Source of the DNA: Gammaproteobacteria bacterium
Lineage (GTDB): Bacteria > Pseudomonadota > Gammaproteobacteria > Xanthomonadales > Wenzhouxiangellaceae
Direction: 5' to 3'
Assembly: GCA_018819105.1 (NCBI GenBank)
Contig: JAHJQV010000040.1
Coordinates: forward strand, 1 to 55,400
DNA length: 55,400 nucleotides
This document shows positions 1,319 to 16,542 of this stretch, in pieces. The notes beneath the pieces were generated by a model. It was not told the origin of the DNA and ran no database searches. It saw only the letters and a list, made by a program, of their open reading frames with translations. The first letter of the stretch is position 1. The number at the start of each line of letters is the position of its first letter. The translations under genes were made by a program, and so were the position numbers.

Positions 1319-1470
1319 TAGTATCATGGCTGAGCAAAGCTGGCAGGTCAGTGAAGCTGACAGTCGACAGACTCAATGCAACCAGAAAGCGGAATAGACT
1401 CACGGATCATCATCTCAGTGAAGATCATCATGTCAGTGAACCACAACAACTCTGCAAGGATACCGTCACC

Positions 1471-2583
1471 GTGCCAGTCATGACCAATGCCAGCAAACTG
1501 TCCGCAGCCAGCGCGTTTCAGGATCACATCCTCGGCTCGGTTTCCAGAACTTTTGCCTTGACCATTCCACAACTTCCGAGCGGTCTGTCGCACGTGATTG
1601 CCAACGCGTATCTGCTCTGTCGCATCGCTGACACGATCGAAGACGAAGCCGCACTGGACAGCGAGCGCAAAGCCTATTTCCAGCGTTATTTCAGTGATCT
1701 GATACTGGGCCGGCGCGATGTTGACGAATTCATGCACAAGCTGTTGCCGCTGCTGACGGCCAGTACACTGGATGCCGAGCGCGAACTGGTTGCCAACACC
1801 GACAAGGTGCTGACCCTGACGCACAGTTTTACGCGCGCTCAGCAGCAGGCGCTGTATCACTGCATCAGCGTCATGAGCCGTGGCATGAGCCGGTTTCAGC
1901 AGGGCATTGATCTGGCTGGTCTGCCAGCAATGCAGGATCTGGACGAATACTGCTACTTCGTTGCCGGCGTGGTCGGCGAAATGCTTACCGACCTGTTCTG
2001 TCAATACGACCAGCACATGGCAGGCAAGCGCAGTCGGCTGATGCATCTGGCACCTTCATTCGGTCAGGCATTGCAGATGACCAACATCCTCAAGGATGTC
2101 TGGGACGATCGCGAACGCGGCGTGTGCTGGTGGCCACGGCAACTGTTTGCCGAACACGGCATCGATCTGCAGCAACTGGAAAACCAGCGCAAATCCAGCG
2201 GCTTCACCCCGGCACTGGAAAAGCTGGTCGGCATTGCCCATGGCCACATTCTCAATGCCTTGCAGTACACGCTGTTGATTCCCCGCTCCCAGACCGGCAT
2301 TCGCAACTTCTGCCTGTGGTCACTGGCGCTGGCGGTGCTGACACTGCAGAACATTCATCGCAACCCGATGTACCAGAACAGCCAGGACATCAAGGTCAGA
2401 CGCAAACGGGTGCAGCAGATCATTGCCCTGAGTCGCCTGTTTGCACGCAGCAATCTGGCCATTCGCGGCCTGTTTCGGCGCGCCCGCAAGGGGCTGCCGC
2501 TGCAGCCGGTGACCCAGGTGAAGCTGCCCGCCGACAACTATCAGGCCAGCCGCGCGCCAGCCACTGTGGTGAAAAGCGCCTGA
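1471..2583 (+). CDS. sqs: Squalene synthase (single-enzyme, eukaryote-like type)
   Basis: Joins two farnesyl diphosphates head-to-head via presqualene diphosphate and reduces the product to squalene. A GTG start at 1471 is chosen because AAGGA lies 10 bases upstream; ATG 1480 is an alternative. In this numbering the first magnesium motif DTIED is at 54-58 and the second (N205, D209, D213) lies in NILKDVWDD. The YCYFVAGVVGE segment (160-170) is typical of one-enzyme squalene synthases, and a hydrophobic stretch follows at about 278-295. No hpnC or hpnE is present nearby, so this enzyme probably does the whole conversion. The gene is 13 bases upstream of shc. A phytoene synthase-type activity is the main alternative but the context argues against it. 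Confidence 0.88.
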   Translation: MPVMTNASKLSAASAFQDHILGSVSRTFALTIPQLPSGLSHVIANAYLLCRIADTIEDEAALDSERKAYFQRYFSDLILGRRDVDEFMHKLLPLLTASTLDAERELVANTDKVLTLTHSFTRAQQQALYHCISVMSRGMSRFQQGIDLAGLPAMQDLDEYCYFVAGVVGEMLTDLFCQYDQHMAGKRSRLMHLAPSFGQALQMTNILKDVWDDRERGVCWWPRQLFAEHGIDLQQLENQRKSSGFTPALEKLVGIAHGHILNALQYTLLIPRSQTGIRNFCLWSLALAVLTLQNIHRNPMYQNSQDIKVRRKRVQQIIALSRLFARSNLAIRGLFRRARKGLPLQPVTQVKLPADNYQASRAPATVVKSA

Positions 2584-2596
2584 CCGCACTGCCCCG

Positions 2597-4600
2597 ATGG
2601 CCAACATCAGCCCACTCATGCGCAAGCAAGGTCACCACGGTCAGCCCGCCGTGAGCGACGACCAAGCCGCGAGCACGCTGCTCAGCCGGGTCCAGACTGC
2701 GGCACGCAAAGCCAGCCAGGCATTGCTGCAACGACAGCGGCCGGACGGCCACTGGTGCTTCGAACTGGAGGCCGACTGCACGATTCCGGCGGAATACATC
2801 ATGCTGATGCATTACATGGATGAGATCGACGACGATCTGCAGCGCCGCCTGGCCAACTACATTCGCCAGCGACAACTGGAAGATGGCAGCTGGCCGCTGT
2901 ATACCGGTGGCGACATGGATCTGAGTTGCTCGGTAAAAAGTTATCTGGCACTGAAACTGGCCGGTGACGACATCGACAGTGCACACATGCAGGCCGCCAG
3001 AGCAGCCATTCTGCAAGCCGGTGGCGCCGCACATGCCAATGTGTTCACGCGCATCGCGCTGGCTCTGTTCGAGCAGGTGCCGTGGCGTGCAGTGCCCTAC
3101 ATTCCTCCGGAAATCATGCATCTGCCGGCCTGGTTCCCGTTCAACCTGCATCGCATTGCCTACTGGTCGCGCACCGTGATGGTGCCCTTGCTGGTCATCT
3201 ATGCGTACAAGCCCAAGGCGATCAACCCGCGCGGCATCGACATTGCCGAACTGTTCCACGTACCGCCGGAGGAGGAAAAACAGTATTTTCTGCGCCCGTC
3301 GGCCCTGCACACACTGTTTCTGGGCATCGAGCGCAGCGCACTCAATTTGATCGAGCCGGTGATGCCCTCGATCATGCGGCGCAGCGCCCTGCGCAAGGCC
3401 GAACGCTGGTTTGTGGAACGCCTCAATGACGAGGACGGGCTCGGGGCAATTTTTCCGGCCATGGCCAATGCCTACATGGCCCTGCACTGCCTGGGTTATG
3501 CCGCAGATGATCCGCGCGTGGAGAAATGCCGCACCTCGCTGCGCAAGCTGGTCATTGAGATCGACGATGAGCAGGCCTACTGCCAGCCCTGCGTGTCACC
3601 TGTGTGGGACACCGGCTGGGCCGCCGTGGCCCTGCTGAGTCCGGGCAGCAACCCCGCAGAGCCCGATGCCGAGCAATACCGGCAATCGGTGCAGCGGGCC
3701 ATCGACTGGCTGCTGCAGCGTCAGATCACCGATTTCCATGGCGACTGGGCGGTGCAGGCACCCGCTGCCAGCTGCGGCGGCTGGGCTTTCCAGTATGCCA
3801 ACCCGCATTACCCGGATCTGGACGATACCGGCATGGTGGCGGCACTGCTGCAGGTTGCCGGTGGCGGCAGCCGCTACCAGACCGAAATCAACCGCGCGCT
3901 GGACTGGCTGGTGGCGCTGCAGTCCGACGACGGCGGCTTTGCCGCGTTTGATGCCAACAACACTGCCTATTACCTGAACTGCATCCCGTTTGCCGATCAT
4001 GGCGCCCTGCTGGATCCGCCCACCGAGGACGTCACCGGCCGCGTGCTGATGACACTGGCACTGCAGAACCGCGTGCAGGACCAGCAGGCCATCAACGACT
4101 GCATTGACTATCTGCGCCGCACGCAGCAGCCGGATGGCTCCTGGTGGGGGCGCTGGGGCACCAATTACATTTATGGCACCTGGAGCGTCCTGGCCGGGTT
4201 GATATTTGCCGGTGAAGACCCGCAGCAGCCTTACATTCAACGTGCGATCAGCTTTCTGTTGCGGCAGCAGCAGGACGACGGCGGCTGGGGCGAGAGCAAT
4301 GACAGCTACGTCCCCGAGCTGCGTCACAACAGCTGCGCTAGCACCAGCTGGCATACCTCGTGGGCCCTGCTGGCACTGATGATCGCCGGGGAAGTGCAGC
4401 GACCGGAAGTCGCGGCCGGTATTGAGTGGCTGTTGCAGCAGCAGCAGGAAGATGGGCTGTGGCATGATCCCTGGCACAACGCACCCGGCTTTCCGCGTGT
4501 GTTCTATCTGAAATACCATGGCTACAGTGCCTATTTTCCCACCTGGACCCTGAACCGCTACCAGCAGCTGCAGCAGCGCTCCCTGCGCGTCGCTGCCTGA
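2597..4600 (+). CDS. shc: Squalene-hopene cyclase
   Basis: Cyclises squalene to hopene (and diplopterol) at the cytoplasmic membrane. The 667-residue length is normal. The catalytic acidic motif is at 407-412 and reads DLDDTG, where the family most often has DxDDTA. Multiple QW repeats are visible, for example the PDGSWWGRWG stretch in the C-terminal half and QQDDGGWGES further on. The stop codon overlaps the ATG of hpnG (TGATG), so the two are translationally coupled. Placement directly after squalene synthase fits substrate hand-over. Confidence 0.96.
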   Translation: MANISPLMRKQGHHGQPAVSDDQAASTLLSRVQTAARKASQALLQRQRPDGHWCFELEADCTIPAEYIMLMHYMDEIDDDLQRRLANYIRQRQLEDGSWPLYTGGDMDLSCSVKSYLALKLAGDDIDSAHMQAARAAILQAGGAAHANVFTRIALALFEQVPWRAVPYIPPEIMHLPAWFPFNLHRIAYWSRTVMVPLLVIYAYKPKAINPRGIDIAELFHVPPEEEKQYFLRPSALHTLFLGIERSALNLIEPVMPSIMRRSALRKAERWFVERLNDEDGLGAIFPAMANAYMALHCLGYAADDPRVEKCRTSLRKLVIEIDDEQAYCQPCVSPVWDTGWAAVALLSPGSNPAEPDAEQYRQSVQRAIDWLLQRQITDFHGDWAVQAPAASCGGWAFQYANPHYPDLDDTGMVAALLQVAGGGSRYQTEINRALDWLVALQSDDGGFAAFDANNTAYYLNCIPFADHGALLDPPTEDVTGRVLMTLALQNRVQDQQAINDCIDYLRRTQQPDGSWWGRWGTNYIYGTWSVLAGLIFAGEDPQQPYIQRAISFLLRQQQDDGGWGESNDSYVPELRHNSCASTSWHTSWALLALMIAGEVQRPEVAAGIEWLLQQQQEDGLWHDPWHNAPGFPRVFYLKYHGYSAYFPTWTLNRYQQLQQRSLRVAA

Positions 4601-5400
4601 TGGCTGCCAGCACTGCCGGTTTCGTTGTCGCATTGAGCTGGGAACAGCGCCTGCTGTCTGCACTACTGCCGCGCAACTGCCGATTGCTGCGCTCCGGCAT
4701 GGGCGCCGAGGCGGCAAGCGTCGCCGCCCGGCAGCTGTTGCATGATGGTGCCGACATGCTGGTCAGCTGCGGTTGTTGTGCCGGCTTGAGCGCCGATCTG
4801 CGCGCTGGCGATGTGCTCATCGCCAGTGCGGTTCTTGCCTCAGACGGCACCCGGTTTGCGGCGACTACGGAGGCCCTGAGCACCGTGCAAAAACGCTTTG
4901 CGCCGATGTTTGCTGCCCCCGACAGCGAGTCGGGTGCTGGCCGCAGCAGCGCGCGTCGCCAGCCTGCCGTGTGCCAGACCGGCACCCTGTTGACACTGCC
5001 AACAGCCGTGGCTGAGCCGCAGCACAAACAACAGCTTGCCAGGATCCACCGGGCGCAGGCTGCGGACATGGAAAGTGTGGCCATTGCCAGCGTTGCGGCT
5101 CAGGCTGCAGTGCCATTCTTGGCCGTGCGCGTGGTGCTAGACGACTGTCAGCAGAGCCTGCCCGAGGCCGTCACTGCCAGTTGCAATGACTATGGCGATG
5201 TTAACCCCATGGCCCTGCTGCGGGCCTGTGGGCGGCAACCGGGTCTGCTGCTGGAACTCGTTGCATTGGCCCGCAGTCGTAGCCGTGCAGCAAGCAGCCT
5301 GCGCCGCCTGGCCGTAGCCTGGCCGACAATGCAGCACGCGGCAGACACACCTGGTGTCGACGCAGTACGGTCACACCCGGCAACCATAAAGCAACACTGA
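4600..5400 (+). CDS. hpnG: HpnG: adenosylhopane phosphorylase/nucleosidase
   Basis: Member of the purine phosphorylase/nucleosidase fold. In hopanoid producers HpnG removes adenine from adenosylhopane to give ribosylhopane (or its phosphate). Visible motifs are the Gly-rich SGMGAEAA near residue 32, SCGCCAGL at 56-63 and the nucleoside-binding DMES at 156-159. Length is 266 residues. It overlaps shc at its start and hpnM at its end, both by TGATG-type junctions. Its substrate is made by HpnH, encoded about 9 kb downstream in the same run. Confidence 0.88.
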   Translation: MAASTAGFVVALSWEQRLLSALLPRNCRLLRSGMGAEAASVAARQLLHDGADMLVSCGCCAGLSADLRAGDVLIASAVLASDGTRFAATTEALSTVQKRFAPMFAAPDSESGAGRSSARRQPAVCQTGTLLTLPTAVAEPQHKQQLARIHRAQAADMESVAIASVAAQAAVPFLAVRVVLDDCQQSLPEAVTASCNDYGDVNPMALLRACGRQPGLLLELVALARSRSRAASSLRRLAVAWPTMQHAADTPGVDAVRSHPATIKQH

Positions 5401-6140
5401 TGCGATACAACATGACTGCCATCTTGCCCAGTAAGCGGTACCACCGCGCCCATACCGCCTGCGCCATCGCCCTGGCCACACTGCTGATCGCCGGTGTCTC
5501 AGGGCATGGCCTGGCCGCACAGGACAACGATGCAATGTCGACAATGGCGACGGACCAGGCCATAGTCGAGCACAGTACTGCGCTGCAGCTGCCGGATAGC
5601 TCAGCCAGCCCGGAGGCGGTGGTCGCGGCACTGGAACAGGCGCTGCTGCACATCATGCAGATGCCGGACGCCGACACCAGCACCCGCGCGGCAGTGCTGC
5701 AACCGGTGCTGCGGCGCACGTTTGACTTCCAGCGCATGAGTCGCTTCATTTTCGGACCACGCTGGAATCAGTTTTCCGAGGCACAACAGCAAGCGTTCGT
5801 GCGCGCCCTGCTGCAACTGAGCTGTGCCAGTTACGCGGCAAATTTTGACAGCTACAACGGCGAGCGCTTTGCGGCACTGGATGCAGCGGCAGAGGAACCG
5901 GATCCTGCCGGCCAGCGCGCACGCATCAATCGGCAACTGATCACCAACAAGCAGACGGTGGCGTTCAATTACGCGCTGACGCGCACCGAACAGGGCTGGC
6001 AGATCGCCAACATCATGGCCAAGGGCGTCAGCGACCTGGCGCTCAAACGCAGCCAGTACAGCAAATTGTATGACGACGGTGGCGTGGCGGCGGTGCTGGC
6101 CTACATCAGCAGCCAGACCGAACGTCTGTACGCCAGCTGA
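5400..6140 (+). CDS. hpnM: HpnM: MlaC-like periplasmic hopanoid-associated protein
   Basis: A 246-residue secreted protein of the MlaC/Ttg2D (phospholipid-binding) family. The N-terminus is a signal peptide: charged start, a hydrophobic core at about 20-34, and an Ala-rich cleavage region ending near LAAQ. The rest resembles the MlaC domain, with the conserved FDFQRMSRF segment near residue 105 and a C-terminal half that normally holds a lipid pocket. The position between hpnG and hpnN matches hopanoid clusters in other bacteria. It probably carries a lipid across the periplasm together with HpnN; this is inference. Confidence 0.85.
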   Translation: MRYNMTAILPSKRYHRAHTACAIALATLLIAGVSGHGLAAQDNDAMSTMATDQAIVEHSTALQLPDSSASPEAVVAALEQALLHIMQMPDADTSTRAAVLQPVLRRTFDFQRMSRFIFGPRWNQFSEAQQQAFVRALLQLSCASYAANFDSYNGERFAALDAAAEEPDPAGQRARINRQLITNKQTVAFNYALTRTEQGWQIANIMAKGVSDLALKRSQYSKLYDDGGVAAVLAYISSQTERLYAS

Positions 6141-6165
6141 GACCAAGGCAGACCGGCGCGCCGCA

Positions 6166-8961
6166 ATGCCTGATTCTGGCTTCGTCCAAGATCTTCAGCG
6201 ACACCTGCAGGACTGGCTGCGCGGCACGGTCAACCAGGCCGGGCCGGTGCTGCTGCTGGCTGTGCTGCTCACCGCTGCGGCCGGTCATTACGCCGCCACG
6301 CACTTTGGCGTCAACGCCGACACCTCTGCCCTGCTCGACCAGTCGCTACCGTTCATGCAGGCCGAGCGCGAGATCAGCGCGCGCTTTCCGGTGTTCAACG
6401 ACAACCTGCTGCTGGTGCTGGAAAGCCACAATCGCAGCAGACTGCAAGTGCAGGCAGAGCGTCTGTTCGCGCGCTTGCAGCAACAGCCGGAACTGTTCCC
6501 GGAGGTGAGTTGGCCGGCAGGTGACAGCTGGTTGCAACAGCATGGTCTGCTGTATCAGGACAGTGCGGCTCTGCAGCAGCTGGCCGACCGGCTCAGCGCA
6601 GCGCAACCCATGCTGGCACAGCTGCGCCAGCAGACCAGCGCCAGCAGCCTGTTCGAGATGCTGCAGCTGGCGCGTCAGCATCAGCTCAGCACCGCCGCTG
6701 GTGCAAACGACAGCGCTACCCTGCAGCCCATACTGGACGCGCTCGCTGTCCAATTGCAGCGGCTGGCAAGCGACAGCGCTGCTGAGCCACTGGACTGGCG
6801 TGCCCTGCTGTCCGGCAATCTCGCCAATCCGGCACAGCCCGGTGAGCGACAGCGTGAACTGCTGCTGGTGCGACCGGCGCTGGACACCAGCCGGGTAATG
6901 TCGGCGACCGCAGCACTGCAGCAACTACAACAGTTGCGCGATGAACTGGGTCTGTCACCGCAGACTGCTGGTGGCGCTGAGGTCAGTATGCAGATCACCG
7001 GCAGCGTGGCGCTGAAACATGAGGAATTGCTGAGCAGCATGCGCGGTGCGGCCACCGCCGGCCTGCTCGCCCTGCTCATGGTGACAGCACTGCTGTGGCT
7101 GGCACTGCGCTCACTGTGGATGCTGGCCGCCGCCCTGCTCACCCTGATGACCGGCCTGGTGCTGACGGCGGCGTTTGCGGTCTGGGCAGTCGGTGACATC
7201 AACCTGATCACCATTGCCTTTGTCGTGCTGTATATCGGCCTGGGCATCAACTACAGCATTCATTTTATTCTGCGCTACCAGGAACAGCTGAGCGTCAACA
7301 GCCGCCCCGGTGTCCCGGCCGGAGTCCCGGCCAGAGTCACAGCCAGAGACGGCCATAACAACCCAGACCATGCAAGCGAAGACGAGGCGCGCGCGGTCGC
7401 CATCGTTGCCGCCGGCCGGTTGCTGCTGCCGGCGCTGGCACTCAGCGCGCTGACCACCATGATCGGTTTTTTCGCCTTCATACCGACCAGCTATCGCGGC
7501 GTGGCCGAACTGGGCCTGATTGCCGGCGTGTCCATCGCCATCACCCTGCTCACCCACTACACACTGCTGCCGGCACTGTTGCGACTGCTGCCACAACCGC
7601 CGGCTCGCCGGCTGCGACCGGCATCCCGCGGCAACTGGCTGGAATTGCCGCAGCGACAACGGCGCCCGCTGTTGTGGGTCACCGCATGCCTTGCTGTGAC
7701 CGCCGCGCTGATCGCCCCGCAGATCCGCTTCGACAGTGATCCGCTCAATCTGCGCCAGCAGGATGCCGAATCGGTGCGCGCCATGCGCAGTCTGCTCAGC
7801 GACGGTCGCGGTGATTTCCGCGCGCTGATGAGCAGCGCGGCAGATGCTGACCAGGCGCGGACAGTGCGTGCTAAGTTGCTGCAGCTGGACAGTGTGGCCC
7901 GCGTGCTCACCGCCGACAGCCTGATCCCGGCACAGCAGGAGGAAAAACTCTGGCAACTGGACGATCTGCGCTTTCTGCTCGGCAACGACATACTAAGCCA
8001 CGACTGGCAACTGCAAGCGGCCGAACCCGCACAGTTGTTTGCCAGCATGCAGGCATTGCTGGCCGTGCTGCGCCAGGCACCCGCTGCGCAACCCGGGCAA
8101 ACACCGGACAACCCCAGCTGGCAGCAACTGGCCGAGGCCATCGAGGCGCTGCTGGCCCGACGCAGCAGCAGTCACGACGAGGCGCTTGCCACCGCCATCA
8201 ACCAGCAGTTGCTGGGCGATCTGCCGGCGCTGCTGCGACGACTGCAGGACATGCTCCAGCCGACCGCCGTGATCGGCATTGACCAGTTGCCACCGCAGCT
8301 GCGCCGGGCATGGATTGCTGCCGACGGCAGCTGGTTGCTGCGCATCTATCCGCGCGCCGACGGCAACGAACTGCAACAGCTGGAAAGCTTTGTTGCTGAG
8401 GTCAACACAGTCACCGACCAGGTCGCCGGCGCCGCCGTCAAGCAGATTGCATCCGGTCGCGCCATCAGCCGGTCGTTTTATCAGGCGCTGCTCACGGCAC
8501 TGCTGGTGATCAGCCTGCTGCTGCTGTTGCTGCTGCGCAGCGTGGCAATGACCTTGCGCATACTGCTGCCCCTGCTGCTGGGTGGCGCGCTCACCCTCGC
8601 CGCCATGGTGCTGCTGGCGCTGCCGCTGAACTATGCCAACATCATCGCCCTGCCGCTGCTGCTGGGCGTGGCAGTGGACAACGGCATTCATCTGGTCTGG
8701 CGTCATCGGCTGGGTGATCTGCCGCGTGACAACGTGCTGCGCACGGCCACTGCGCGGGCGATTGTGTTTGCGGCACTGACGTCGGTGGTGAGTTTCGGCA
8801 ATCTGGGCTTTTCCAGTCATGCCGGCAGCGCCAGCATGGGCATTCTGCTTGCCGCCGGTCTGCTCATCACCCTGCTGTGTACCTTGCTGGTGCTGCCAGC
8901 CTTGTTGCCGGCAGCCTCAATCAACCATAATGGCGACCAGAACGCGGATCAGCGACCCTGA
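6166..8961 (+). CDS. hpnN: HpnN: RND-type hopanoid transporter
   Basis: A large inner-membrane RND/MMPL protein. HpnN homologues move hopanoids toward the outer membrane. The ATG at 6166 is preferred to the longer frame from 6070, which would overlap hpnM. This gives 931 residues: one N-terminal membrane segment, a periplasmic loop, a first block of helices (bases about 7050-7580), a second large loop and a final block of helices (about 8480-8930). Internal duplication of helix-loop-helix blocks is typical of RND proteins. It follows hpnM by 25 bases and precedes the mevalonate genes by 50 bases. Confidence 0.9.
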   Translation: MPDSGFVQDLQRHLQDWLRGTVNQAGPVLLLAVLLTAAAGHYAATHFGVNADTSALLDQSLPFMQAEREISARFPVFNDNLLLVLESHNRSRLQVQAERLFARLQQQPELFPEVSWPAGDSWLQQHGLLYQDSAALQQLADRLSAAQPMLAQLRQQTSASSLFEMLQLARQHQLSTAAGANDSATLQPILDALAVQLQRLASDSAAEPLDWRALLSGNLANPAQPGERQRELLLVRPALDTSRVMSATAALQQLQQLRDELGLSPQTAGGAEVSMQITGSVALKHEELLSSMRGAATAGLLALLMVTALLWLALRSLWMLAAALLTLMTGLVLTAAFAVWAVGDINLITIAFVVLYIGLGINYSIHFILRYQEQLSVNSRPGVPAGVPARVTARDGHNNPDHASEDEARAVAIVAAGRLLLPALALSALTTMIGFFAFIPTSYRGVAELGLIAGVSIAITLLTHYTLLPALLRLLPQPPARRLRPASRGNWLELPQRQRRPLLWVTACLAVTAALIAPQIRFDSDPLNLRQQDAESVRAMRSLLSDGRGDFRALMSSAADADQARTVRAKLLQLDSVARVLTADSLIPAQQEEKLWQLDDLRFLLGNDILSHDWQLQAAEPAQLFASMQALLAVLRQAPAAQPGQTPDNPSWQQLAEAIEALLARRSSSHDEALATAINQQLLGDLPALLRRLQDMLQPTAVIGIDQLPPQLRRAWIAADGSWLLRIYPRADGNELQQLESFVAEVNTVTDQVAGAAVKQIASGRAISRSFYQALLTALLVISLLLLLLLRSVAMTLRILLPLLLGGALTLAAMVLLALPLNYANIIALPLLLGVAVDNGIHLVWRHRLGDLPRDNVLRTATARAIVFAALTSVVSFGNLGFSSHAGSASMGILLAAGLLITLLCTLLVLPALLPAASINHNGDQNADQRP

Positions 8962-9011: not shown

Positions 9012-10043
9012 ATGAATAAAGCAGCAACCGATCACCTGGCCACAGCCCAGGCACACGCCAACATTGCCCTGATCAAATACTGGGGCAAACGCCGTGGCAA
9101 CAGCGACGCATTGAACCTGCCGGCAGTGGGCTCACTGAGCATTACACTGGACGCACTGACCACCACCACCTCGGTGCAATTTGACGACCAGTTGGCCACC
9201 GACGAGGCCTGCATCAACAATCGCCGCCTGCAGGCACGCGAGTTGCAGCGCATCAGCAACAGCCTGGACCTGGTGCGCAAGCGGGCCCGGCAACAAGGGC
9301 TGACGCAGATTGCCGACCGCCACGCCAGGGTGGTCAGTGACAACAATTTCCCCACCGCTGCCGGGCTTGCCTCATCAGCGTCCGCGTTCGCTGCGCTGGT
9401 CACTGCGGCCGCCGCCGCGGCCGGGCTGCAGTTGACTGACAGAGCATTGTCGGTACTGGCGCGCATGGGTTCGGGATCGGCTGCCCGCTCGATCTATGGC
9501 GGCTATGTGCTGATGCCGCGCGGTCAGCACGACGATGGCAGCGATGCGGTGGCACAGCCGCTGCACGATGCCACGCACTGGCCGCTGCGGGTTTTGATCG
9601 CCATCACCGACAGCGGCTATAAAAAAGTATCCTCGACGCTGGGCATGCAGCAGACCATGCTGACATCACCGTATTTCGCGGCCTGGGTGGCGGCACAGGA
9701 AGCCGATCTGCAGCAGGCTGCTGCGGCCATTGCGCAGCGTGATTTTGACCGCCTGGCTGAGTTGGCCGAACATTCCTGCCTGAAGATGCACGCCACGGCA
9801 CTGGCAGCACAGCCCGGCGTGCTGTACTGGAACCCGGCCAGCATTGCCTGCATGCAACTGATCCGCGACCTGCGCGCACAGGGCCATGCGGTGTTTTTCA
9901 CCAACGATGCCGGCCCGCAAATCAAGGCGGTGTGCCTGCCCGAGGCCGAAGCCACGGTCAGCGCCGCACTGCAGACGGTCACCGGAGTGCAGTCGGTACT
10001 GCACAGCGGGCTGGGCGGTGAGGCCCGGCTGTTGCCGGCATGA
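9012..10043 (+). CDS. mvaD: Diphosphomevalonate decarboxylase
   Basis: Catalyses ATP-dependent decarboxylation of mevalonate 5-diphosphate to isopentenyl diphosphate, the last step of the classical mevalonate pathway. The family motif ALIKYWGKR is at 19-27, the GHMP ATP-binding loop PTAAGLASSASA at 114-125 and the catalytic Asp lies in FFTNDAGP near residue 302. Length (343) is normal. The ATGA overlap with the next gene couples it to the phosphomevalonate kinase. The mevalonate route is uncommon in Gammaproteobacteria, where the MEP route is the rule. Confidence 0.95.
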   Translation: MNKAATDHLATAQAHANIALIKYWGKRRGNSDALNLPAVGSLSITLDALTTTTSVQFDDQLATDEACINNRRLQARELQRISNSLDLVRKRARQQGLTQIADRHARVVSDNNFPTAAGLASSASAFAALVTAAAAAAGLQLTDRALSVLARMGSGSAARSIYGGYVLMPRGQHDDGSDAVAQPLHDATHWPLRVLIAITDSGYKKVSSTLGMQQTMLTSPYFAAWVAAQEADLQQAAAAIAQRDFDRLAELAEHSCLKMHATALAAQPGVLYWNPASIACMQLIRDLRAQGHAVFFTNDAGPQIKAVCLPEAEATVSAALQTVTGVQSVLHSGLGGEARLLPA

Positions 10044-11095
10044 GCGACACCCGGTATGCCCACGAGCTGACGGTGTCGGCACCAGGCAAGGCGCTGATCC
10101 TGGGCGAGTATGCGGTGTTGTACGGACACCCGGCGGTGGTGCGCTCGGTGCAGCGCCAACTGCACTGTCAGATCCGCTGGCAAGCGGCAGCGGAGCACTC
10201 ACTGCTGGCCACACCGGTGCTGTCGGCGGCGCAGGCGTTTGCTTTCGATGCTGACGGCAAGCTGCGCTGGCAGAACCCCGACAATGCGCAGCGACTGCCA
10301 TTCATCAAACCGCTGTTCGACCTGCTGGAAGGCTGGCCGGAACTGCTCAGCCGCCAGCTCGACGGCAAGCCGCTGCATGCGCAGATCACCGTGGACAGCT
10401 CGGCGTTTTATCACCAGCGCAGCAGTAAACTTGGGCTTGGCTCCAGTGCCGCCCTCAGCGTGGCGCTGTTCAAAGCCTGGTACCAGCTTAGATACCCAAG
10501 CAGCAAGCTGGATCCGGAGCAGTGGCTGAACAGCCTGATCGGCCTGCATCGGCAGTTGCAGCAGGGCCATGGCAGCGGTGTGGACATTGCTGCCAGCCTG
10601 TACGGTGGCCTGCTGTCTTTTCACCTGCAGGCACGCGGCAAGCGCGCCACAGCGCAGCCACTGCAGTGGCCCCAGGGACTGGAAGTTGTCTGGATCTGGC
10701 TCGGCAATCCGGCCTCGACACGGCACATGATCGAGGACATCGAACTGTTTCGCCGGCAGTGCCCACAGCCGCACCGCCAGCACATCGATGCCATGGCCGC
10801 AATCAGCAGCGCTGGTCTCGCCGCCATTGCCGCAGGCGATGCATTGGCGCTGCAACAGAGCATTGCCGCCTATGGCGACGCCATGCAGGCCTTTGGCGAG
10901 GCCGCCGAAGCGCCAATCTACACCGATGATCACCGACGTCTGGCGGCGCTGGCGCGACAGACCGGTGTGGCGTTCAAGCCATCCGGCGCCGGTGGTGGTG
11001 ACATTGCGCTGGCGGCAGCCACTGACACCACCGCGCTGGCCGAATTTGCCCGCCAGTGCAGCGCCGCAGGTTATCAGATTCTGGGGCAACTGTAA
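10040..11095 (+). CDS. mvaK2: Phosphomevalonate kinase (GHMP family)
   Basis: Phosphorylates mevalonate 5-phosphate to the diphosphate. GHMP signatures are APGKALILGEYAVLYG at 14-29, GLGSSAA at 132-138 and a C-terminal GAGGGDIAL. The GHGSGVDIAAS stretch (176-186) has the G-S-G-x-D form of phosphomevalonate kinases rather than the HGTPSGIDN form of mevalonate kinases; the latter form is in the fused protein that follows. The start overlaps mvaD by four bases. The protein is 351 residues. Confidence 0.88.
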   Translation: MSDTRYAHELTVSAPGKALILGEYAVLYGHPAVVRSVQRQLHCQIRWQAAAEHSLLATPVLSAAQAFAFDADGKLRWQNPDNAQRLPFIKPLFDLLEGWPELLSRQLDGKPLHAQITVDSSAFYHQRSSKLGLGSSAALSVALFKAWYQLRYPSSKLDPEQWLNSLIGLHRQLQQGHGSGVDIAASLYGGLLSFHLQARGKRATAQPLQWPQGLEVVWIWLGNPASTRHMIEDIELFRRQCPQPHRQHIDAMAAISSAGLAAIAAGDALALQQSIAAYGDAMQAFGEAAEAPIYTDDHRRLAALARQTGVAFKPSGAGGGDIALAAATDTTALAEFARQCSAAGYQILGQL

Positions 11096-11265: not shown

Positions 11266-13539
11266 ATGGACAAATCCCGCATTCCCGGCTTTTACAAGCT
11301 CAGTCTGACAGAGCGCATCCAGGCGGTGCAGCAGCGTGCCCTGCTGGGCAAGGACGAAATGCGCCAGCTCACCAGCGGCAGCCACACGCTGAGTCCGGAA
11401 GCTGCCGACAAAATGATCGAGAACGTCATCGGCGTGCTCGGCATCCCGATGGGGGTTGGGCTCAATTTCGTCGTCAACGAAAAACCTTATCTGGTGCCCA
11501 TGGCGGTGGAGGAGCCTTCCATTGTCGCGGCCATCAGCTCGGCCGCCAAGCTGGCGCTGAGCACCGGCGGGTTTCATGTGCAAAGCACCGAACAGCTGCT
11601 CATCGGGCAGATCCAGATCGTCGATGTGCCGCATCCGGCCAAGGCGCGCACGCAGCTGCAGCAGCGCCGCAGTGAGATCATCAATCTGGCCAACAGCCTG
11701 CACCCCAACATGGTGGCGCGCGGCGGCGGCGCCAAAGACATTGAGGTGCATTTGCACCAGTCACCGTCCACCGGCAAGAACATGCTGGTGGTGCACCTGC
11801 TGGTGGACACCTGTGATGCCATGGGGGCCAATCTGGTGAATACCATGTGCGAGGGTGTCGCCAGCCTGGTTGAGAGCATCACCGGTGGCAAGGTGTTTCT
11901 GCGCATTCTCTCCAACCTGACCGATCGCGCACTGGTCATCGCCAGAGTGACCTATCCGGTCGCTGTGCTGGCCGGCAAGGGCTTCAGCGGTGAACAGGTG
12001 CGCGATGGCATCATTCTGGCCAATGACCTGGCGCTGGTGGACCCCTACCGCGCCACCACCCACAACAAAGGCATCATGAACGGCATTGATGCGGTGGCGC
12101 TGGCCACCGGCAACGACTGGCGCGCCATTGAGGCTGCGGCTCATGCCTATGCCGCGCGCAACGGCCGCTACAGCTCGCTGACCAAATGGTATCGCGACGA
12201 GCATGGCAATCTGGCCGGTGAGCTGGAAATCCCGATGAAAGTCGGCACCGTGGGCGGTCCCCTGCAATCGAACCGCTCGGTAATGATCAATCATCGCATG
12301 CTGGCGGTGGAGTCGGCCAGGGAACTTGCTGAACTGATGGGCGCAGTGGGCCTGGCACAGAACTTCTCGGCGCTGCGGGCACTGGTCACCAGCGGCATTC
12401 AGTCCGGCCACATGACGCTGCATGCACGCAGCGTGGCGATGGCCGCCGGTGCCCCGGACAACATGTTTGATACCGTGGTGGATCGCCTCATCGAAAGCGG
12501 CGAAATCAAGATCTGGAAAGCACGAGAAATCGTCGACACGCTGCAGCAGCAGCCCGTTGCCGACGTGCCTGCAGCGCTGGATGCCGGTGTCGAAGCACTG
12601 GCCACGGGACATGGCAAGGTGATTCTGCTGGGTGAGCATGCCGTGGTCTATGGCAGCCATGCACTGGCGGTGCCGGTGCCTCTGGCGATTCAGGCCAAAA
12701 TTGCTGACAACGACGAAGGCATCGACATCATCATCCCGCGCTGGGGTGCCGAGCAGCGTTTGCACCGCAAGCCTGAACAGCGGCATTCCTTCGAAAAACC
12801 CATCGCGCTGATTCTGGAGCAGCTTGAACTGCTTGATGAAGCGATGAAAATCGAGATCTTCCCCAATGTACCGCGCGCGGTAGGCCTGGGCAGTTCCGCA
12901 GCGGTGGCCGTGGCCATCACCCGCGCGCTGGATCAGCACTTTCGTCTCGGCCTCAACGACGAGCAGATCAATGCGCTGGCGTTTGAATGCGAGAAAGTTG
13001 CCCATGGCACGCCCTCGGGCATAGACAACACCATGGCCACGTATGGCTATCCCATGCTCTACCGCAAGGGTGAACCGGCGCTGATGGAAGCCCTGCACAT
13101 CGGTACCGAATTGCCGCTGGTGATCGGCTTCAGCGGGGTGGAATCACTGACCGCAAAAATGGTTGCACGCGTGGCCGCTGCGCATGCCAAACACCCGGCC
13201 ATCTATCGGCGCATGTTCCATGGCATCGACGGTCTGGTGCTGGAAGCCAAAAATGCGCTGCAAAGCGGTGACTGGCAGCAGCTGGGAGAATTGATGAACG
13301 TCAACCAGGGTCTGCTCAACGCCATGCAGATTTCCTGCTGGGAAATCGAGGAAATGATCCAGATCGCACGCCAGCATGGTGCACTGGGGGCCAAAGTCAC
13401 CGGTGGTGGCGGCGGCGGCGCGTGCATCGCGTTGTGTCCGCAGCGGCAACAGGAAGTGATCGAAGCGCTGAGCGCGGCCGGTTATCAGGCCATGGCGGTC
13501 AGCGTGCCGATCACACAAGCACAGGGAGAGCCAAAGTGA
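11266..13539 (+). CDS. Fused HMG-CoA reductase (class II) - mevalonate kinase
   Basis: One 757-residue frame joins two full enzymes. Residues 1 to about 425 are a class II HMG-CoA reductase. Candidate catalytic residues are E83 (VEEP), K268 (THNKG), D284 (GNDW) and H382 (SGHMTLHA), close to E83/K267/D283/H381 of the Pseudomonas mevalonii enzyme; the nucleotide motif DAMGAN is at 184-189. After a linker of about 20 residues, a mevalonate kinase follows: KVILLGEHAVVYG at 451-463, GLGSSAA at 540-546, HGTPSGIDN at 580-588 and the Gly-rich loop at 712-718. The product would turn HMG-CoA into mevalonate and on to mevalonate 5-phosphate. Its stop overlaps the GTG of idi. Frame and motifs are continuous, so no sequencing error is needed to explain the fusion. 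Confidence 0.95.
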   Translation: MDKSRIPGFYKLSLTERIQAVQQRALLGKDEMRQLTSGSHTLSPEAADKMIENVIGVLGIPMGVGLNFVVNEKPYLVPMAVEEPSIVAAISSAAKLALSTGGFHVQSTEQLLIGQIQIVDVPHPAKARTQLQQRRSEIINLANSLHPNMVARGGGAKDIEVHLHQSPSTGKNMLVVHLLVDTCDAMGANLVNTMCEGVASLVESITGGKVFLRILSNLTDRALVIARVTYPVAVLAGKGFSGEQVRDGIILANDLALVDPYRATTHNKGIMNGIDAVALATGNDWRAIEAAAHAYAARNGRYSSLTKWYRDEHGNLAGELEIPMKVGTVGGPLQSNRSVMINHRMLAVESARELAELMGAVGLAQNFSALRALVTSGIQSGHMTLHARSVAMAAGAPDNMFDTVVDRLIESGEIKIWKAREIVDTLQQQPVADVPAALDAGVEALATGHGKVILLGEHAVVYGSHALAVPVPLAIQAKIADNDEGIDIIIPRWGAEQRLHRKPEQRHSFEKPIALILEQLELLDEAMKIEIFPNVPRAVGLGSSAAVAVAITRALDQHFRLGLNDEQINALAFECEKVAHGTPSGIDNTMATYGYPMLYRKGEPALMEALHIGTELPLVIGFSGVESLTAKMVARVAAAHAKHPAIYRRMFHGIDGLVLEAKNALQSGDWQQLGELMNVNQGLLNAMQISCWEIEEMIQIARQHGALGAKVTGGGGGGACIALCPQRQQEVIEALSAAGYQAMAVSVPITQAQGEPK

Positions 13540-14138
13540 ACAAGTCAGCGCAAACGGCCATGCGCGATGAAATCGTGTCGTTTCCCGATGAAGATCTGAT
13601 CCTGGTGAATGATCGCGACGAGGAAATCGGTCATCTGGACAAGCTCAACTGCCATCAGGGCAGCGGCATACTGCATCGGGCGTTTTCCCTGTTTGTGTTC
13701 AACGACGATGGCGAGTTGCTGCTGCAGCAACGCAGCGCCGGCAAACCGCTGTGGCCGCTGTACTGGTCCAACACCTGCTGCAGTCATCCACGTCGCGGAG
13801 AAACCGTGGATTTTGCCGTCAACCGTCGCCTGCAGCAGGAACTGGGTCTGAGCACCGAGGCAAAATTTTTGTACAAATTCAAATATCAGGCACAATACGA
13901 TGAGACCGGTGCCGAACATGAGCTATGCTGGGTTTATCTGGGCCGCTGTCAGGCGGACCCGGTGCCCAACGCCACCGAGGTCGAGGCCTGGCGTTTTGTT
14001 GCGGCGGACCGGCTCGATGAAGAGCTGCAACAGCATCCGCAGCGCTTCACGCCATGGTTCAGAATGGAATGGCAGGAACTCAACACCACACACGCTGCCA
14101 CACTGAATCAGTACACACGCAAACTGCGATCAATCTGA
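13536..14138 (+). CDS. idi: Isopentenyl diphosphate isomerase, type I
   Basis: Interconverts IPP and DMAPP, which the mevalonate route needs because it yields only IPP. A Nudix-fold protein of 200 residues. The catalytic cysteine motif NTCCSHP is at 79-85 and the catalytic-Glu region EHEL at 127-130. A GTG start at 13536 is chosen: GGGAGAG lies a few bases upstream and GTGA overlaps the upstream stop. A longer frame from 13422 would lie inside the kinase gene and is not supported; ATG 13560 is an alternative. Confidence 0.93.
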   Translation: MNKSAQTAMRDEIVSFPDEDLILVNDRDEEIGHLDKLNCHQGSGILHRAFSLFVFNDDGELLLQQRSAGKPLWPLYWSNTCCSHPRRGETVDFAVNRRLQQELGLSTEAKFLYKFKYQAQYDETGAEHELCWVYLGRCQADPVPNATEVEAWRFVAADRLDEELQQHPQRFTPWFRMEWQELNTTHAATLNQYTRKLRSI

Positions 14139-14182
14139 GCACAACAACCAAGCATCACCGAGCAGACTACGGGACAAGCATC

Positions 14183-15343
<1,161 letters not shown>

Positions 15344-15423
15344 CAGGCCTTGCAGATGATCGCTGATGAGGCGTCCGCGCCCGCCAGCACTGCCCCCACC
15401 AGCTACCAGATGCGGACCACAGC

Positions 15424-16542
15424 ATGCTGACCACTGCCGCCATCGTGGCGGCGGCGTGCTGGCTAGCCCTGCTGCTGCTGCCATGGCGACCGTGGTCGGT
15501 GCGCGAGCAGCTGCCGGCGCTGGACAACATTGACAGCACGGCTGCTGATCTGTCTGCCATCACGGTACTGATTCCGGCACGGGATGAAGCCGGGCACATC
15601 GCCGCCACGGTGCGCGCCGTGGCCAGCCAGGGTACACAGCTGCGCGTCATCGTCATCGATGATCAATCCAGCGACGCCACCGCGAGCCTGGCTGCTGCGG
15701 CCGGTGCCGAGGTGCATCCCGGCAGCGATCTCCCGTCCGGCTGGACCGGCAAACTGTGGGCGCTGCATCAGGGCCTGGAACGCACCGACAGTGAACTGGT
15801 CCTGCAACTGGATGCAGACATCCGGCTGCGACCCGGCATGCTGGCGGCTCTGCAGTCCAAGCTACAACGCGAGCAGCTGGCGCTGGTCAGCATCATGGCG
15901 CTGCTGCCGACCGACAACATCTGGCAGCGTCTGCTGCTGCCGGCCTATGTCTGGTTCTTCAAACTGCTGTACCCGTTTCGACTGGCGAATGCCCCCGGGC
16001 GTGGTTTTGCCGCCGCCGCCGGCGGCTGCATCCTGCTGCGCCGTCAGGCCCTGCTGGACATTGGCGGCTACCGGCAACTGGCTGGCGCCATCATCGACGA
16101 CTGCACCCTGGCCGCTGCCATCAAGCGCCACGGCGGACGCATCTGGCTGGGTCTGAGCCGGGATGTGGTCAGTCAGCGCGCCAGCGCCTCAGCCGGCGAC
16201 ATCGGCAAGCTGATCAGTCGCACCGCCTACACCCAGTTGCGACATTCTCCACTGCTGCTGCTGCTCACCAGCATCGCCATGCTGCTGATTTTCTGGGTGC
16301 CGCCGCTGGCCTTGCTGCTGACCGGCGCGATGGGCAAAATTGCCGGGCTTACCGCCATGGCAGGCATGTGGATCTGCTACCGGCCATTGCTGCGGTTTTA
16401 TCGTCTGCACAGCGCACATGCGCTGGCGTTGCCGTTGATCGCAGCGTTTTATCTAAGCCAGACCTGGGTCTCGGCCTGGCTGCACTGGCGCGGACGCGGT
16501 GCGGAGTGGAAACAGCGCCATTACCACAGCGCAAAATACTAA
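15424..16542 (+). CDS. hpnB: HpnB: hopanoid-associated glycosyltransferase (GT2)
   Basis: A membrane-bound family 2 glycosyltransferase of 372 residues. One N-terminal membrane helix (5-20) is followed by a GT-A domain with IDDQSSD at 78-84, the metal-binding DAD at 130-132 and IIDDCTLA in the acceptor region. At least two to three C-terminal helices follow at about 275-345. The hopene-associated HpnB family normally sits in hopanoid clusters, and this gene follows hpnH directly. The sugar donor and product are unknown. Confidence 0.85.
   Translation: MLTTAAIVAAACWLALLLLPWRPWSVREQLPALDNIDSTAADLSAITVLIPARDEAGHIAATVRAVASQGTQLRVIVIDDQSSDATASLAAAAGAEVHPGSDLPSGWTGKLWALHQGLERTDSELVLQLDADIRLRPGMLAALQSKLQREQLALVSIMALLPTDNIWQRLLLPAYVWFFKLLYPFRLANAPGRGFAAAAGGCILLRRQALLDIGGYRQLAGAIIDDCTLAAAIKRHGGRIWLGLSRDVVSQRASASAGDIGKLISRTAYTQLRHSPLLLLLTSIAMLLIFWVPPLALLLTGAMGKIAGLTAMAGMWICYRPLLRFYRLHSAHALALPLIAAFYLSQTWVSAWLHWRGRGAEWKQRHYHSAKY

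Follow-up and report, generated by a model that had tools for sequence, protein, structure and literature searches.

Does the product of a single gene of this gammaproteobacterium catalyse two successive steps in the mevalonate pathway, and what would be gained by joining the two enzymes? The window, i.e., the whole stretch of 55,400 nucleotides that we analysed, contains one open frame of 757 codons that starts with ATG and has no internal stop (Table 1). It provides the single HMGR match in the whole genome, a draft of 3.14 Mb in 68 contigs that is 98.7% complete. Judging from its domains and their residues, this gene very probably encodes a bifunctional biosynthetic enzyme, a predicted HMGR tethered to a predicted mevalonate kinase (MVK) and coupled to it by proximity. 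We infer the two activities, the use of NADPH, and a kinetic advantage of the joined form. What weighs against this reading, as detailed below, are the fusion genomes that keep DXR, those in which HMG-CoA synthase has no match, the low score of the kinase in the PMK position, a cofactor helix shared with some unfused HMGRs, and two fusions that lack the HMGR flap.

Table 1. Coordinates in the window of the fusion gene, its parts, and the neighbouring mevalonate and hopanoid genes.
Feature	Positions	Strand	Evidence or remark
Squalene synthase-like (hopanoid group)	1351-2583		Below family cut-off
Squalene-hopene cyclase (nearby hopanoid gene group)	2597-4600	+	Above cut-off
HpnG-like (hopanoid group)	4600-5400		Below family cut-off
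HpnM-like (hopanoid group)	5400-6140		Below family cut-off
HpnN (hopanoid group)	6070-8961		TIGR03480, above cut-off
Diphosphomevalonate decarboxylase (MVD)	9012-10043	+	TIGR01240, 280.3 bits, above cut-off
GHMP kinase, phosphomevalonate kinase (PMK) position	10040-11095	+	TIGR01220, 108.3 bits, below cut-off (165.7)
HMGR-MVK fusion gene, 757 aa	11266-13539	+	ORF, Pfam/NCBIfam matches, homologues, trees
Class II HMG-CoA reductase domain, residues 1-427	11266-12546	+	TIGR00532; 6dio alignment; Foldseek
Linker, residues 428-444	12547-12597	+	Length variable among homologues; structure model
Mevalonate kinase (GHMP) domain, residues 445-747	12598-13506	+	TIGR00549; 2hfs alignment
Type I isopentenyl-diphosphate isomerase (IDI)	13560-14138	+	NF002995 and TIGR02150, above cut-off
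HpnH adenosyl-hopene transferase	14054-15343	+	TIGR03470, 538.4 bits, above cut-off
HpnB-like hopene-associated glycosyltransferase	15424-16542	+	TIGR03469, 379.2 bits, 0.05 bit below cut-off

Both halves score well above the cut-offs of their families, in line with the sequence-only reading, which had recognised a full class II HMGR and a full mevalonate kinase in one frame. The HMGR half (residues 1-387) obtains 410.9 bits with TIGR00532 (curated NCBIfam cut-off of 259.95), its best HMGR match and a model that NCBIfam names 'degradative', and the kinase half (residues 449-723) obtains 254.7 bits with TIGR00549 (NCBIfam cut-off of 163.05). In Pfam, PF00368 reaches 354.1 bits (against 27), and PF00288 and PF08544 also exceed their gathering scores. 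Residues 4-427 align with the HMGR of Delftia (PDB 6dio), which shows that the C-terminal flap of HMGR is included in the fusion protein, and residues 447-737 align with the mevalonate kinase of Leishmania (PDB 2hfs). The expected catalytic residues, also pointed out in that reading, are present and invariant among fused representatives: E83, K268, D284, and H386, which we take to be the catalytic Glu, Lys, Asp, and His of P. mevalonii-type HMGR, are identical in 68 out of 68 fused HMGRs, and K451, H458, S544, E576, and D587 are identical in 69 out of 69 fused MVKs. Among the latter, K451, E576, and D587 are presumably the catalytic Lys, Glu, and Asp of mevalonate kinase, and S544 presumably goes with the GHMP motif. 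Only HMGR and GHMP-type kinase families of Pfam and NCBIfam match the protein; a thiolase domain has no match in it, and the protein is thus, as first proposed, not of the thiolase-HMGR type (mvaE).

In the mechanism that we propose, the N-terminal class II HMGR would convert HMG-CoA to mevalonate, and the C-terminal kinase, held on a flexible linker of approximately 17 residues, would use ATP to turn mevalonate into phosphorylated mevalonate. The other products of the same gene group (the kinase in the PMK position, MVD, and IDI) would then finish the synthesis of IPP/DMAPP, beside hopanoid genes. The gain would consist of a fixed 1:1 expression and of proximity: immediate phosphorylation would remove mevalonate, pull the reversible HMGR forward, and limit losses by leakage. 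The AlphaFold2 model, made with an alignment of 52 rows, has a mean pLDDT of 87.5 and a moderate pTM of 0.61, with pLDDT below 50 at linker residues 430-442. Foldseek matches the model with PmHMGR 9dcp (TM of 0.91 by target length) and also with mevalonate kinases. Across 67 fusions, the two aligned domains are separated by a median of 16 residues; this distance is 3 to 73 residues in 65 of them and negative in two (L177 and L180), where the HMGR flap is missing. In these two genes (L177:6010-8127 and L180:2313-4367), the flap is absent after approximately residue 393-398, and the kinase follows almost directly. A linker of variable length suits a tether rather than a rigid tunnel, and a disordered tether between two domains, as predicted in the model, makes proximity and the trapping of mevalonate likelier than a tunnel. 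There is no support for a closed tunnel through which the substrate would pass.

The same observations bear on the most serious alternative, in which one half is weak, the halves are cleaved apart, or both work uncoupled, leaving at most a benefit of co-expression. A linker that is variable and predicted to be disordered resembles an unconstrained tether, and terminal branches have a median length of 0.41 in the MVK tree, against a shorter 0.22 in the HMGR tree, with fused and single rows pooled. However, catalytic residues that are invariant in all representatives of both halves speak against it, and we found no split descendant within the fused clade, but the search with the whole protein as query favours fusions. 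We regard this alternative as unlikely, if still worth serious consideration. Its uncoupled case overlaps with the proximity-coupled enzyme that we favour, and the probabilities given to the two are not exclusive.

The history of the fusion was traced with quick trees of each half (SH-aLRT support, midpoint root). The HMGR tree, with rows clustered at 85% identity, has 107 rows (68 fused, 39 single). All 68 fused rows are on one side of one branch, with a support of 100, and a single change between fused and single is needed; this remains so without the two longest rows. The nearest single HMGRs are eight rows that share a larger clade with the fusions (support of 95): six of them carry the label Myxococcota, one is labelled Lujinxingiaceae, and the last is a proteobacterial bin. 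An MVK frame lies directly 3' of the HMGR in five of the eight (L192, L193, L195, L196, and L202), and none was seen after the HMGR in the other three (L197, L200, and L204). Adjacent unfused HMGR-MVK pairs are also found outside this clade, in two loci labelled Bacillota (L198 and L199). The MVK tree (97 rows, 69 fused and 28 single) needs three changes. Several of its single rows are probably PMK or other GHMP kinases, and the two singles that fall among the fusions are L042, a fusion truncated where its contig ends, and L005, a tandem duplicate; with the longest rows removed, L042 counted as fused, and L005 omitted, the tree needs one change. Since the fusions make one clade in the trees of each half, the fusion probably formed only once. 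The simplest history is that neighbouring genes fused once and that the joined gene then spread by descent and transfer, with a direction that depends on the midpoint root. We discarded fission within the fused clade because the contig of its sole candidate (G576/L042) ends within the gene. The L005 gene (G008:C4:93972-94898) is an extra stand-alone kinase directly 3' of a fusion; it shares 68% identity with the kinase half of the fusion in the window and apparently arose by tandem duplication of the kinase part alone.

The genes around the fusion point to the direction of the pathway (Table 1). The kinase in the PMK position scores well below the PMK cut-off, and its substrate is therefore not certain. 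The likely start of IDI is the ATG given in the table, the mechanical ORF beginning at 13422, and the true start of HpnH is probably downstream of the one listed. The mevalonate genes of the window sit amid hopanoid genes (1351-8961 and 14054-16542). For comparison with other genomes, we used the named loci, i.e., the best 80 of at least 586 loci encoding a relative on named genome contigs, a sample that favours fusions: 67 of these 80 have both domains in one ORF, and 13 do not. By a fixed rule, MVD and a PMK-like gene are upstream and IDI is downstream, on the same strand, in 33 of these 67 fusions; another 9 lie close to where a contig or locus ends, and 25 have a partial set or a different order. 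For example, MVD, the PMK-like gene, and IDI are all downstream in L156, and IDI is upstream in L163. Hopanoid genes are present at 11 of the 67 loci; among members of the family, they occur at L106, and none was found beside the fusion in L108-L110.

We searched for DXR (PF02670). In a first set of 37 relatives, none of the 23 fusion genomes has DXR (in two of them, the end of a contig cuts the fusion), and each of the 14 others has it. The latter include a member of the family (G007, 91% complete) that has DXR and no match to the fusion. In a second set of 53 chosen genomes, DXR is present in 11 out of 37 fused and in 16 out of 16 unfused. Once overlaps between the sets are removed, 48 of 59 fusion genomes lack DXR, and all 28 unfused genomes have it; some of the fusion genomes are incomplete drafts. 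DXR was not found in the genome of the window. Its absence from most of the fusion genomes tested suggests that mevalonate is likely the sole route there. It is not always so, because DXR is kept in the 11 fusion genomes of the second set (G134, G181, G227, G319, G355, G359, G367, G375, G387, G436, and G1122), which may have both isoprenoid routes; nine of them belong to one family of the order (f12). The available part of one paper describes a mevalonate pathway and a squalene synthase in Wenzhouxiangella, unlike in Marinicella, and leaves the fusion unmentioned (PMC7691419).

The genome of the window has an HMG-CoA synthase (HMGS) on another contig (C47; TIGR01835, 364.7 bits for a cut-off of 360.35). 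Among the 23 fusion genomes of the first set, 10 have no match to PF01154: two single-contig genomes (G016 and G022) and G001, G002, G006, G010, G017, G018, G020, and G021. All of them also lack DXR. Using the HMGS of the window's genome as a query, we obtained only weak matches in these ten genomes (at best 45.1 bits, in G017), and the nine others matched neither TIGR01833 nor a second type of HMGS. No HMG-CoA synthase was found among the 9 neighbouring ORFs scanned in G016. This second, divergent HMG-CoA synthase-like type, of approximately 500-560 aa, is found at L214:1444-2961 (G341), with matches in G004, G040, and G355, and it occurs in several fusion genomes in place of the MvaS type of the window's genome.

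An extension of the proposed mechanism would make the fusion a flux-directing module that, in lineages devoid of DXR and of a recognisable HMGS, works on HMG-CoA derived from leucine. The leucine-breakdown genes would, on our assumption, be those of a carboxyltransferase and an enoyl-CoA hydratase-like protein. An enoyl-CoA hydratase-like gene, with matches below the cut-offs, adjoins the carboxyltransferase in four of five loci (L226, L231, L234, and L229), and in the fifth (L224), the carboxyltransferase frame alone was scanned. A large carboxyltransferase (PF01039, more than 520 bits) is present in 17 of the 18 genomes searched, the best match in G021 having 428.5 bits; we rejected it as a sign of the leucine route because it occurs both with and without HMGS and does not discriminate. 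We hold this extension to be improbable. If it were true, prompt phosphorylation of mevalonate would let an HMGR of a type related to degradative enzymes run a biosynthetic route, and leucine would feed the sole source of IPP in genomes such as G016 and G022.

The reaction of class II HMGR is reversible. In another alternative, the enzyme would be of the degradative Pseudomonas mevalonii type and run towards HMG-CoA, with the kinase as a passenger. The name of the best HMGR model ('degradative' for TIGR00532) and the nearest solved structures, which are the Delftia and P. mevalonii enzymes at approximately 50% identity, would fit such a role. Yet the neighbours are MVD, the kinase in the PMK position, and IDI, genes that are found again, all or some of them, at most fusion loci, and since no DXR was found in this genome, the cell needs IPP from mevalonate. 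The cofactor helix also argues against degradation. In the accessible text of a 2026 preprint, the motifs of this helix are Dx(V/L)xxxL in NADH enzymes and (H/Y)xSxxxR in NADPH enzymes (PMC13370337), and the portion available of a study of the Ruegeria HMGR, assayed in both directions, gives Asp154 as critical for cofactor choice (PMC12292504); in our own mapping, Asp154 corresponds to position 1 of the helix. The helix of the window protein is HPNMVAR. Of the 68 fusions, 65 begin this helix with H/Y (position 1) and carry R at position 7, and none of the 68 has the NADH motif; the strict NADPH motif, with Ser at position 3, is found in only one, this position being usually K, N, or R. Among the 39 unfused HMGRs, nine have the NADH motif and seven have H/Y and R, including some of Myxococcota and Bacillota. 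Since unfused HMGRs share the H/Y...R helix, this type of helix is probably older than the fusion. From these motifs, we predict that the HMGR of the fusion uses NADPH or both cofactors, making the 'degradative' label of the family probably misleading here. In all, we consider a degradative role very unlikely.

The fusion is widespread in many Gammaproteobacteria and some other Bacteria, not rare. With the whole protein as query, fusions of full length and in one frame came up in 35 of 61 close relatives; wider draws contained them in 64 of 398 genomes at the level of the order, in 9 of 369 at that of the class, and in 2 of 398 at that of the phylum. The four draws overlap, and each counts the window's own genome. 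Judging from its close relatives, the host is probably a member of the Lysobacterales close to Wenzhouxiangella. The draw of the order, which lists the same family first, itemises 43 genomes of that family: 36 have full-length fusions, 2 have fusions that are cut but cross the junction, 1 has the N-terminal part only, and 4 have no match; 277 more genomes of the draw, besides those itemised, have no match. Ten extracted loci flagged for a stop inside are intact ORFs of 735-760 aa with a terminal stop, and in the other full-length rows with this flag, the alignment extends to at least residue 749 of the query. Three of the 67 named fusions (L183, L184, and L185) are cut by contig ends, yet cross the junction. 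Among the best 80 named loci, the titles of carriers include isolates of Dyella, Rhodanobacter, Salinisphaera, and Cryobacterium, and bins with the labels Wenzhouxiangella, Woeseiaceae, Calditrichota, Melioribacteraceae, Planctomycetota, Acidobacteriota, Nakamurella, and KSB1, among others; phylum labels beyond Pseudomonadota and Actinomycetota come from bins alone. In plasmids (PLSDB), 46 records match the query, none covering 80% of it, and all 25 of these matches that were listed hit the HMGR part.

At the HMGR/MVK junction of the window gene, we found no in-frame stop. As internal starts for a free kinase, we considered three GTG codons that lie in frame close by (12565, 12619, and 12643) and set them aside, because none has a Shine-Dalgarno sequence evident by eye. 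The sequence-only reading had named an error at this junction as one thing that could undo it. That an assembly or sequencing artefact erased a stop codon between two adjoining genes, as the adjacent HMGR and MVK genes in identical order of some unfused relatives might suggest, can be dismissed with hardly any doubt, because homologues carry the same single frame in 64 of 398 genomes of the order, in 67 of the best 80 named loci, and in named isolates (Dyella, Rhodanobacter, Salinisphaera halophila, and Cryobacterium).

The fusion had been put forward as one not known to be characterised, and our search agrees: among the papers listed from the open full-text literature, we found no description of an HMGR-MVK fusion, going by titles and the starts of abstracts, a scope that has most subscription papers outside it. 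In the part available of a 2026 review, mvaE encodes a thiolase and an HMGR, and the word 'fusion' is used once, for IspDF (PMC13001223). In the main text, as accessible, of a preprint on a network of 6,924 HMGR sequences, 'fusion' occurs five times, each time for a tag, and 'mevalonate kinase' is absent (PMC13370337). By score and residues, the two halves are members of known families whose pairing we did not find described in the open literature; domain-based entries for proteins of this kind probably exist in the protein databases. HMGR is a much-studied enzyme, and yet its widespread joining to the enzyme that acts next in the pathway seems to have been passed over in that literature. It offers a natural test of whether joining HMGR and MVK speeds up flux or limits the loss of mevalonate, which would be useful for isoprenoid engineering. 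Its probable single origin and the labels of several phyla also make it a marker for the transfer of the mevalonate pathway and the loss of MEP among Bacteria.

The window protein can be compared with several known systems. The class II HMGRs of P. mevalonii and Delftia acidovorans (TIGR00532; 1qax and 6dio) have a like fold, length, and set of catalytic residues, at approximately 50% identity, whereas the HMGR of the window is fused to a kinase, has the helix HPNMVAR instead of DxV/LxxxL, and has biosynthetic neighbours. The mevalonate kinases of Leishmania major (2hfs/2hfu) and Methanosarcina mazei (6mde) share the GHMP fold, at approximately 32% identity, but are free-standing. The unfused pairs of Myxococcota (L191, L192, L193, L195, L196, and L202) and those of an Alicyclobacillus bin and Oceanobacillus (L198 and L199) have the same order, HMGR then MVK, on one strand; they differ from the fusion in consisting of two frames and in that MVD, where found, is downstream of MVK. 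In MvaE, finally, the thiolase is presumably N-terminal. The MvaE of Enterococcus faecalis (acetoacetyl-CoA thiolase-HMGR, as given in the available part of PMC13001223) likewise joins an HMGR to an enzyme of the same pathway, but the partner in the window is not a thiolase: it is the next enzyme, a C-terminal mevalonate kinase.
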